The notes beneath the pieces were generated by a model. It saw nothing but the letters and a program-made list of their open reading frames with translations. It made no database searches and had not been told where the DNA came from. Below are positions 41,103 through 46,214 of a stretch of DNA of 64,000 nt, piece after piece; within the stretch, counting starts at the first letter, position 1; each line of letters starts with the position of its first letter. Source of the stretch: Pseudomonas sp. DG56-2 (GTDB taxonomy: Bacteria > Pseudomonadota > Gammaproteobacteria > Pseudomonadales > Pseudomonadaceae); assembly GCF_004803755.1 (NCBI RefSeq), contig NZ_CP032311.1, positions 1,628,501 to 1,692,500 of the forward strand, in the 5' to 3' direction. The position numbers and the translations under genes are program-made.

Positions 41103-41178
41103 GGGGCTATAGCTCAGCTGGGAGAGCGCCTGCATGGCATGCAGGAGGTCAGCGGTTCGATCCCGCTTAGCTCCACCA
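41103..41178 (+). tRNA. tRNA-Ala (GGC), copy 1
   Basis: 76 nt with encoded CCA. Anticodon loop ATGGCAT gives GGC. The acceptor has the G3:U70 pair that identifies alanine tRNAs. Confidence 0.97.
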
Positions 41179-41216
41179 AATTCCGATTCGTAGTTAGCTA
41201 CACTGACTGCGAAGTC

Positions 41217-41241
41217 AACCGGGCTGCAGCAGCCGGGTTGT
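41217..41241 (+). other. hairpin between tRNA-Ala and tRNA-Glu
   Basis: CAACC-G-GGCTGC / GCAGCC-G-GGTTG, with a central A. Probably a processing structure in the polycistronic tRNA precursor. There is no equivalent hairpin in the second Ala-Glu spacer. Confidence 0.55.
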
Positions 41242-41257
41242 AAAGGTAAGAAGGTTC

Positions 41258-41333
41258 GTCCCCTTCGTCTAGTGGCCTAGGACACCGCCCTTTCACGGCG
41301 GTAACAGGGGTTCGAGTCCCCTAGGGGACGCCA
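41258..41333 (+). tRNA. tRNA-Glu (TTC), copy 1
   Basis: 76 nt with CCA. Acceptor GTCCCCT/AGGGGAC, anticodon loop CTTTCAC gives TTC. Confidence 0.97.
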
Positions 41334-41385
41334 GTTTTACACAAGCGATATCGAAAGAGTCGCTGGGCCGAGAGGCTAGAAATCT

Positions 41386-41461
41386 GGGGCTATAGCTCAG
41401 CTGGGAGAGCGCCTGCATGGCATGCAGGAGGTCAGCGGTTCGATCCCGCTTAGCTCCACCA
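41386..41461 (+). tRNA. tRNA-Ala (GGC), copy 2
   Basis: Identical over 76 nt to copy 1, including the G3:U70 pair. Confidence 0.97.
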
Positions 41462-41505
41462 ATTTTGCCAGGATTCGTGAAAACGGATCTGTACGAAGGT
41501 TACAA

Positions 41506-41581
41506 GTCCCCTTCGTCTAGTGGCCTAGGACACCGCCCTTTCACGGCGGTAACAGGGGTTCGAGTCCCCTAGGGGACGCCA
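41506..41581 (+). tRNA. tRNA-Glu (TTC), copy 2
   Basis: Identical over 76 nt to copy 1. Last gene of the tRNA operon. Confidence 0.97.
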
Positions 41582-44708: not shown

Positions 44709-44770
44709 TACGCGATGCCGAAGTCGGGTCGCGGGACTAAACAACCTCGCTGATTTTCAGGAGATGTACC
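44709..44770 (+). promoter_or_regulatory. ROSE-like RNA thermometer in the Hsp20 leader
   Basis: The leader of about 60 nt ends in a hairpin where CTCGCTG (44746-44752) pairs with CAGGAG (44758-44763), which contains the Shine-Dalgarno, across a five-base loop. A single unpaired G lies in the 5' strand, the hallmark of ROSE elements. The start codon is 7 bases later. ROSE thermometers are known for Pseudomonas ibpA. Confidence 0.75.
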
Positions 44771-45217
44771 ATGACTACTGCTTTTTCTCTGGCTCCACTG
44801 TTCCGTCATTCCGTAGGCTTCGACCGTTTCAACGACCTGTTCGAATCTGCGGCGCGTAACGAGGCGGGTAGCAGCTACCCACCCTACAACGTTGAAAAAC
44901 ATGGCGAAGACCACTATCGAATTGTTGTTGCTGCAGCAGGTTTCCAGGAGCAGGACCTCGACCTGCAAGTGGAAAAAGGCGTCCTGACCGTCACTGGCGG
45001 CAAGCGTGACAGCAACACCGAAAGCGTTACCTACTTGCATCAGGGCATTGCCCAGCGGGCGTTCAAGTTGTCCTTCCGCCTGGCCGACCACATAGAGGTC
45101 AAGGCTGCCGGACTGTCCAACGGCCTGCTCAGCATCGACCTGCTGCGCATCGTACCGGAAGAGGCCAAGGCCAAGCGCATCCCGATCAACGGCGATAGCC
45201 AGCCTGCACTGAACTGA
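44771..45217 (+). CDS. ibpA: small heat shock protein Hsp20 (IbpA type)
   Basis: 148 residues with an alpha-crystallin domain (about 38-130): EDHYRIVVAAAGF near 48 and the end motif GLLSIDLLRIVPEE near 120. The C-terminal IXI-like motif is RIPIN near 138. Binds unfolding proteins and hands them to DnaK/ClpB. Expression is predicted to be controlled by heat at transcription and translation. Confidence 0.95.
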   Translation: MTTAFSLAPLFRHSVGFDRFNDLFESAARNEAGSSYPPYNVEKHGEDHYRIVVAAAGFQEQDLDLQVEKGVLTVTGGKRDSNTESVTYLHQGIAQRAFKLSFRLADHIEVKAAGLSNGLLSIDLLRIVPEEAKAKRIPINGDSQPALN

Positions 45218-45234: not shown

Positions 45235-45259
45235 GGGGCACCTTCGGGTGCCCTTTTTT
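45235..45259 (+). terminator. terminator after the Hsp20 gene
   Basis: GGGCACC / GGTGCCC stem with a TTCG tetraloop and six Ts. Confidence 0.94.
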
Positions 45260-45296
45260 ATGGTTCACGAAATCCCGGCTAGAAATCGTGCCGAAA

Positions 45297-45337
45297 GTGT
45301 CCACCATGTCTCCGTACACGTGTCTACCATGTGTCCG
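45297..45337 (+). repeat. tandem 18-mers, possible insertion-sequence end remnant
   Basis: GTGTC-ACCATGT--CCG occurs twice, at 45297-45314 and 45320-45337, 23 bases apart, three mismatches. Multiple direct repeats of this kind resemble the ends of IS21-type elements, but no transposase is present. Confidence 0.35.
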
Positions 45338-45493
45338 GTCTATACACCAAGACAAAAGGAATGCGCCGTAAGGGCGCAAAGGTGACTCCAAACCGCCCAC
45401 GTCAATGGATCAGCACCTGGCTGTATGGGTCACCGACTACACAGTTGGCCGACCGCGAGTGAGTACCGGAATGTGGCTCGAGTGGCGATGGGC

Positions 45494-46127
45494 ATATCCA
45501 TTTGATGCAGTGGCGCTATTGGCTGGTTTCGCCCTTACGGCGACCCACTTTTGTCGGGGCAAAAGTGGGCAAAACCCCCTGTCCCTGCATCCGGCCCTAC
45601 GCTGCGCTCCGGGTTCCCTCATTCCACCCTTGCTCCCGCGGGGACCGCGCCGAAGGGCCGTCCTGGCCCTGCGGCGCTCGCCGGCCATCCATGGCCGTCG
45701 CCCCACTACGCAAGGGTTCCATTCGGCCTGCTGAAGGGACGATTTGTGGCGTCTGCACGATTTGTGTAGGGAGAAGCACAGCAGCGGCAACGGCAACAGC
45801 GAGGTGCTGGTGTGCAGCTTTTGCTTTTGCTTTTGATCTGGCTCTTCGTACATCGCCAGCCCAGACACCCTGGATCGTCCCTTCAGTAGGCTGAGTGTAG
45901 GTATTGCGTAGTCGGGTGCAGGCCATGGATGGCCTGCGAGCACCGTAGGGCCAGGACGGCCCTTCGGTGCGGTCCCGACGGGAGCAATGCCGGAGCGAAG
46001 GGACCCGGAGCGCAGCGTAGGGCCGAATGCAGGGACACACGGTTTTGGTTCCTTTTGCCAAGACAAAAGGGACCTGCCGTAAGGGCGGAAGGGGCCAACA
46101 GCGCCGCCGCATTGAATGGATAAGCTC
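45494..46127. repeat. large imperfect palindromic element
   Basis: Left arm about 45494-45755 matches the reverse complement of the right arm about 45862-46127 along its whole length, roughly three quarters identity by eye, with perfect blocks such as GGCCCTACGCTGCGCTCCGGGT and CTGAAGGGACGAT. The unpaired centre (about 105 bp) contains a (CTTTTG) triplet repeat. A transcript would fold into a stem of over 200 bp. Similar sequences recur in P. putida/fluorescens genomes in my memory; I cannot name the family. Confidence 0.75.
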
Positions 46128-46188
46128 ACAGCCTCAAATCCCAGCCCAGCCCAAAGATCATGCCCCCGGGATTTCGTGAAGAACCAGA

Positions 46189-46214
46189 CAAAAGCGGGTC
46201 GCCGTACGGGCGAG
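46189..46214 (+). repeat. third copy of the palindrome-end sequence
   Basis: GACAAAAGCGGGTCGCCGTA and the following CGGGCG match, inverted, the outer part of the left arm (45530-45555) with about two mismatches in 26. A more diverged copy lies at 45350-45376. It ends against the stop codon of the GGDEF-EAL gene. Confidence 0.6.

Follow-up and report, generated by a model that had tools for sequence, protein, structure and literature searches.

A repeated Pseudomonas element with ISL3-type ends that probably carries two outward-facing structured RNAs of the TwoAYGGAY kind

The window analysed here, a 64,000-nucleotide stretch of the Pseudomonas sp. DG56-2 genome (NZ_CP032311.1, positions 1,628,501 to 1,692,500), includes ibpA and a convergent gene for a GGDEF/EAL protein, and between the two lies a large palindrome. 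A repeat search of the window places its arms at 45484-45755 and 45862-46133, each 272 nt long, 79% complementary and separated by 106 nt, in close agreement with a first-pass annotation made from the sequence alone, which had given arms of about 260 bp with roughly three quarters identity and a centre of about 105 bp. A ROSE-type thermoregulator is located upstream of ibpA (44709-44776), and four tRNA genes stand in a row at 41103-41578.

The degenerate copies of the arm ends and the enclosing 15-bp inverted repeat that had also been reported are indeed present. Positions 45347-45382 are 83% like 46058-46093, positions 46184-46213 are 90% complementary to 45529-45558, and the 15-bp repeat (45264-45278 and 46166-46180) matches exactly between both sides. 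This repeat proved to be the terminal inverted repeat (TIR) of a larger, multi-copy element of 924 bp (45262-46185), and it also ends other copies; the palindrome thus stands as located, as the core of an element whose ends are the TIRs at 45262 and 46185 (Table 1). A partial third arm, a fragment like the end of an IS481-family element and an arm-end remnant sit inside or beside the element, which bears out the suggestion of one element inserted into another. Of the two plasmid records inspected, one has an annotated IS481-family transposase gene about 30 bp away from the IS481-like fragment, and the other lacks any annotated transposase within 3 kb of it. In searches of plasmids and phages, the IS481-like part alone was matched, in three plasmid records, and 0 of 50,697 phage records gave a match. 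The arm-end remnant at 46186-46213 would have been left by an older copy or by copies that recombined. Given the lack of a target duplication, nesting or recombination accounts for the window copy better than a clean single insertion does.

Table 1. Parts of the element and its immediate surroundings (window coordinates; a point marks features given no strand)
Feature	Position	Strand	Basis or remark
Intrinsic terminator of ibpA, putative target site	hairpin 45236-45253, T-tract 45254-45259	+	sequence
TTTTTTAT, left flank of the insertion	45254..45261	+	right side is AGACAAAA; no duplicate in the window copy
Left TIR, GGTTCACGAAATCCCGG	45262..45278	+	3 bp deleted relative to GGTTCTTCACGAAATCCCGG
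Nested remnant like an IS481-family element end, about 56 bp	45291..45346	.	blastn match, three plasmid records
Partial extra (third) arm, arm-profile positions 199-272	45347..45420	+	nhmmer match, direct repeat
Left putative RNA arm, outward	45486..45755	-	arm profile 1-272, TwoAYGGAY match, covariation
Centre between the arms, 106 bp	45756..45861	.	repeat search
Right putative RNA arm, outward	45862..46131	+	arm profile 1-272, TwoAYGGAY match
Sub-terminal stretch of CCCAG tandem units	46132..46164	+	unit number varies among copies (sequence comparison)
Right TIR	46165..46185	-	GGTTCTTCACGAAATCCCGGG on the minus strand
Arm-end remnant outside the element	46186..46213	+	inverted repeat; no target duplication here

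The element belongs to a repeat family. In the single contig of its own genome (5,820,432 bp), the 650-bp core recurs, far beyond chance, as at least 80 matching pieces at E<=0.001, a lower bound because scoring covered 40 of the 49 first-look candidates. Identity reaches 95-97% in the best full-length copies, and the centres between the arms measure 100-130 bp in the 14 loci measured. The arms are thus far from unique to this site, as the first-pass annotation had required of a mobile element. We examined the flanks of 20 own-genome loci, the overlapping L018, L021 and L022 not being given separately. A TIR of the form GGTT[C/G]TTCACG[G/A]AAT[C/T]CCGGG was present at both ends of 12 of the 20 loci (up to six edits) and at one end only in L016; none was found in six (L010, L012, L013, L014, L019 and L020), and a six-edit match on one side of L015 is probably due to chance. 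Elsewhere in this genome (2379307-2379349), a small hairpin consists of TTCACGCAATCCCGG and its inverse around a 13-bp loop, like two TIRs face to face. A single TIR common to all Pseudomonas copies was considered and rejected, since, among the other species whose copy ends were shown, most lack this sequence.

Comparison of the ibpA locus among relatives indicates that the site is generally empty. Of 398 Pseudomonas genomes, 353 have the ibpA end, and the best 30 of these loci, own genome included, were examined; both flanks were present in 24 of the 29 relatives and not in the other five. In 22 of the 24, the gap between ibpA and the GGDEF/EAL gene measures 46-267 bp, compared to 997 bp in DG56-2, and in many of the relatives shown, ibpA is followed by the hairpin and T-tract also present here, with the GGDEF/EAL gene next. 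The short gaps and the lack of Pfam matches give no sign of a gradual decay of coding sequence here. Longer gaps occur in G305 (939 bp) and G007 (470 bp). In G305, this T-tract is likewise occupied by a related element, flanked by seven T on each side, whose TIRs have diverged (3 and 4 edits). It was probably inserted independently of the DG56-2 copy, considering that the flank position and one arm type differ and that the equally close G291 and G109 have empty sites; a single ancestral insertion shared by the two is a possible alternative. In G007, the gap is filled by a third, different arm-bearing insertion (L115), so that it holds related elements in three species. In G391 and G220 (L131 and L132), inverted-repeat DNA of another kind, one end of which resembles TTAATGCCAGTCAGTTAA, breaks up the ibpA terminator, and in L132, CCTTCGGGT is found on both sides of this DNA.

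The insertion sites share a distinctive sequence context. All 12 TIR-bounded elements of this genome have, within 10 bp of the left end, a run of five A or five T (A5/T5), a motif present in 0.8% of the 10-mers of the window; at the right end, all but the window copy do (11 of 12). Target duplications are evident in sister copies: the 8-base flanks are alike at all eight positions in L003, L005, L017 and L023, at seven in L002, L006, L007 and L008, and at five or fewer in L004, L009, L011 and the window copy itself (L001, 1/8); A/T homopolymers inflate such apparent duplications, and the flanks ttttttga, ttttttat, ataaaaaa, ttttttca and ttattttt are not homopolymers. The sole TIR-bounded element from another genome in this test, L101 of G109, has an A/T run on the right only and flanks alike at 4/8 positions. 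Furthermore, 11 of the 12 own-genome elements are flanked on one or both sides by a stable hairpin (-12 kcal/mol or lower), a feature shared by 186 of 500 positions drawn at random from the window and by 29 of its 79 A5/T5 runs; these elements thus sit by terminators.

The TIRs link the element to the ISL3 family of insertion sequences (IS). With one mismatch allowed, 21 of the 149 Pseudomonas genomes searched, DG56-2 among them, contain the TIR pattern, and a reversed control pattern gave no hit. The same TIR bounds a 1308-bp IS in G072, G075, G104, G125 and G163, and shortened copies were found in G103 (1278 bp) and G030 (966 bp). The ORF of the G072 copy encodes a 401-aa ISL3 transposase (NF033550, 335 bits against a cutoff of 180; PF01610, 228 bits). 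All seven IS copies have A5/T5 runs within 10 bp at both ends, and in five of the seven, the 8-base flanks are identical. Targeting of terminators by the IS itself is not supported by the hairpins, which accompany 3 of 7 IS copies, about the background rate; for the IS, the A/T run alone is apparent. Relatives of the transposase were detected in 22 of the 149 genomes (E<=1e-20), some of them fragments or distant, and genomes with the TIR and with the transposase coincide in 11 cases against 3.1 expected (P 8e-6, uncorrected for relatedness).

Searches of the element's ORFs and of the genome yielded no transposase for the element itself, and the DG56-2 genome contains no relative of the 401-aa protein at E<=1e-20. 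An autonomous ISL3 copy in this genome was rejected, the single PF01610 hit being a desaturase-like ORF. The ORF with an ISL3-transposase-like C-terminal part is at L075:1477-2754 on the minus strand, and NCBIfam has a shared DesA/ISL3 tail domain that is also found in the ISL3 transposase. Taken together, TIRs shared with an ISL3 IS, insertion at A/T runs, empty sites in relatives and the lack of an own transposase suggest a non-autonomous transposable element of the ISL3 type that was probably moved in trans, in line with the first-pass proposal of a non-autonomous mobile element; its mobility we infer from these comparisons.

What the arms encode, if anything, is a separate question. A protein-coding palindrome was rejected, none of the seven ORFs tested across it matching a Pfam family, as expected from the earlier description of a palindrome with no gene inside. 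Both arms match the Rfam family TwoAYGGAY (RF01731): the left at 45641-45704 on the minus strand with 43.6 bits, over the gathering score of 43, and the right at 45914-45975 on the plus strand with 41.3 bits, just under it. There are 35 matches to this family in the genome, 19 of them over the cutoff, and among 20 loci from other Pseudomonas, 6 score at or above the gathering threshold. CsrA binding has been proposed for this RNA family (PMC4333381), so that the remark in the first-pass annotation that it knew of no assigned function should be revised.

We aligned 58 arms from Pseudomonas species and predicted a structure of 59 pairs on that same alignment. Two-sided changes occur in at least one sequence at 50 of the 59 pairs, and the covariation score is 0.419, compared to 0.157 (sd 0.006) in shuffled alignments, none of 500 scoring as high, and to at most 0.10 when the structure was slid along the alignment. 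Some of this excess is built in, since structure and counts come from one alignment and the arms are related, but we do not think that this explains the size of the gap. The single very long hairpin envisaged at first is not what evolution has preserved; conservation instead concerns a multi-helix fold within each arm. Which strand is folded is less clear. Folding energy was discarded as a strand test, the lower energy of the outward strand (a difference of -11.1 observed and -9.5 shuffled, in 29 of the 58 arms) being mostly an effect of composition, and the strand was accordingly judged by G-U versus A-C cells in each helix. The 11 helices together have 153 G-U and 84 A-C cells, where composition predicts about 1:1. 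In helices 3, 4, 10 and 11, picked after the counts had been seen, the figures are 124 and 3, whereas helices 7-8 show the opposite (6 and 58), probably an effect of mixing subtypes whose hairpins differ. Given the G-U excess, the contrary helices 7-8 and the uninformative energies, a structured RNA read outward from each arm is favoured rather than proven.

The outward arrangement is common but not universal. Judged by position and strand, RF01731 matches of DG56-2 form 13 outward pairs, with 9 others, and the composite loci L010, L012 and L014 also hold inward junctions. Among 42 loci from 17 other Pseudomonas genomes (arms of at least 120 nt, gap below 700), there are 21 outward pairs, 8 inward pairs and 13 loci with neither; outward pairs are found in 14 of the 17 genomes, inward ones in two (G022 and G009) and none in G025. 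In G022 (L148-L155) and G009 (L164), the 3' ends of the inward arms meet across gaps of 28-40 bp, the exceptions being L153, with a gap of 589, and L152, with no pair; the inward arms of G022 are flanked by GATCTTGATCT-type minisatellites. In the class as a whole, RF01731 was detected in 18 of 274 genomes (17 of 222 genera) and in 0 of 14 control genomes. When 20 loci were scanned in 14 of the RF01731 genomes, L217 (G576) and L223 (G504) proved to contain close outward pairs; L224 has an outward pair with 1.2 kb between its members, L236 contains an inward pair, L230 has two matches on the same strand, and the remaining loci have single matches. Twenty further loci, chosen partly for pairs already seen, represent three genera and four genomes (G504, G443, and G576 and G687 of one genus) and comprise 11 outward pairs, no inward pair and 9 single matches; G443 had no pair among them, so that close pairs outside Pseudomonas are evident in two genera. 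Many of the non-Pseudomonas copies end in inverted repeats unlike the ISL3 TIR. For instance, TwoAYGGAY copies at L247-L262 of G504 and G687 often end in approximately AAAAGCGTTTCGCTCG and GTTTCGCACGCC, which suggests that other systems may mobilise them.

The arm tree bears on how the pairs arose. The two DG56-2 (G000) arms are sisters (93/85), as expected of the inverted duplication postulated at the outset, but a fresh duplication in every species is not supported: in G001, G013 and G027, the right arms group with one another in a clade separate from the left arms of these genomes (support 95/94), and G007 and G109 have two arm types in common (89/86 for one type). A contig labelled as a Rhizobium MAG (L188, CAMBQQ010000081.1) has a Pseudomonas-type arm-end pattern and is possibly mis-binned.

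The CsrA proposal for TwoAYGGAY rests on its two GGA hairpins, which match the CsrA motif (PMC4333381). Both arms of the window copy have GGA in paired hairpin loops, ATGGAT and AGGAC, the second a shortened variant of AYGGAY. Across the 58 arms, A(N)GGA is found in both loops in 36, in loop 2 only in 8 and in neither in 14, and the base before GGA varies. The 22 arms that lack one or both GGA loops include all those of G007, G109, G023 and G024, some of which carry the ISL3 TIR. There are four matches to the CsrA family in the DG56-2 genome; co-occurrence with CsrA was set aside as not discriminating, the protein being present in 18 of 18 TwoAYGGAY genomes and 235 of 274 overall (P 0.057). 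Granted that the arms are RNAs, their role as Rsm decoys is a tentative proposal to which we would give somewhat less than an even chance. A plasmid-borne Rsm protein able to take over host regulation has been described (PMC9928087), so that interference of mobile DNA with Rsm has a precedent.

Overall, we consider it likely that the locus is an ISL3-type element with two outward structured RNAs, which may bind Rsm/CsrA proteins. The strongest competitor, to which we assign a real chance but one well short of even, is a purely selfish ISL3-type non-autonomous element with no regulatory RNA, the arms of which would serve transposase access, replication or protection from read-through. The TIRs, target runs and duplications speak for it, and arms without GGA loops persist in G007 and G109, where the TIR is present too; however, the G-U bias of four helices suggests RNA, and the same RNA pairs recur in other genera with other ends, implying that the RNA is not tied to ISL3. 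A role mainly as DNA, in which the palindrome would be a cruciform or a bidirectional terminator or insulator and a large relative of REP/BIME sequences, seems rather unlikely. It would suit the inverted arms and the position of the window copy between convergent genes, and what we take to be REP-like repeats occupy the ibpA-GGDEF/EAL gap in several relatives, which we counted in its favour; but the arms are just 79% identical to each other and keep diverging in some lineages, the hairpins within each arm covary, and an excess of G-U is not expected for double-stranded DNA. Finally, although ORFs of up to 230 aa span the palindrome, a remnant of coding sequence or an ordinary decayed IS is extremely improbable in view of the seven ORFs devoid of Pfam matches, the two-sided changes at 50 of 59 pairs and the short gaps in 22 of 24 relatives.

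Under the favoured reading of an ISL3-type element with RNA cargo, a transposase of this type, supplied in trans by an IS now absent from the genome, would have inserted the element into the T-tract after the ibpA terminator. An 8-bp duplication, as in the sister copies, would restore the A/T run on the other side, so that the neighbouring genes would be spared. The cargo would consist of two back-to-back copies of one structured RNA, both directed outward, each with a TwoAYGGAY-type fold followed by two 3' hairpins. If transcribed, the likeliest job of these RNAs would be to present paired GGA-loop hairpins to CsrA, RsmA or RsmE.

REP, REPIN and BIME elements are inverted and intergenic, as is the element described here. 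Unlike them, it is much longer and has ISL3-type TIRs and a covarying RNA, and the TIRs and size argue against membership in the REP/REPIN group. It resembles ISL3-family IS and their MITE-like derivatives in sharing its TIR with the IS that encodes the 401-aa transposase, in the 8-bp duplications of sister copies and in the lack of a transposase. MITEs are given as about 30-300 bp (PMC4133298), whereas the elements here measure 529-1118 bp, contain paired structured RNAs and occupy A/T runs mostly by hairpins; the main text of a review of prokaryotic MITEs contains the term ISL3 0 times (PMC10969869).

With TwoAYGGAY RNAs as described (RF01731; Weinberg 2010, PMC2864571; PMC4333381), the arms share two hairpins on a common stem, with loops of the AYGGAY type or a GGA variant. 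They differ in being halves of inverted outward pairs within a TIR-bounded element, in two extra conserved 3' hairpins and in the loss of GGA loops from some lineages; the passages on TwoAYGGAY examined in these two papers do not describe mobile or paired copies. The paired GGA hairpin loops, which are what a CsrA dimer would need (PMC4333381), are also a feature of the decoys RsmX/Y/Z and CsrB/C. In contrast to those decoys, the arms are multi-copy, inverted and TIR-bounded, and their binding and expression are predicted.

Among intergenic repeats of Pseudomonas, Ppu-1 of P. putida (617 bp, 39(28) members, intergenic, RNAz 0.97; PMC2267715) fits the palindrome core in size, copy number, intergenic site and structure, and our guess, from the descriptions, is that the two may be the same. 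The R families of P. fluorescens (R200, 320 bp; R26, 352 bp; PMC2718517) are likewise dispersed intergenic repeats, of about arm size, and by description may overlap with the element. Among the papers listed in literature searches on ISL3 with terminators or MITEs and on Pseudomonas palindromic repeats, we recognized no account of the element, the possible identity with Ppu-1 aside. As far as these searches show, the ISL3-type TIRs with run targeting, the identification of the arms as TwoAYGGAY and the divergent-pair layout are new; the RNA itself is of a known kind, with a function that has been proposed and is here predicted.

A broader generalization, which we regard as doubtful, would be that TwoAYGGAY RNAs are often halves of divergent pairs that have spread in gammaproteobacteria as mobile CsrA/Rsm decoys with lineage-specific ends; in the P. 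putida-like lineage, ISL3-type TIRs would take them into terminator T-tracts, and the roughly 35 copies in DG56-2 would amount to about 70 GGA hairpins. Three threads meet in the element: intergenic repeats of Pseudomonas for which a mechanism was lacking, an RNA family (TwoAYGGAY) whose function is a proposal, and ends of the ISL3 type that direct DNA to A/T runs. Even if there is no link to Rsm, the TIRs and insertion into T-tracts explain how these repeats can lie beside terminators without harm. If the link is true, mobile DNA would alter the dose of a decoy RNA for a global regulator, copy by copy.
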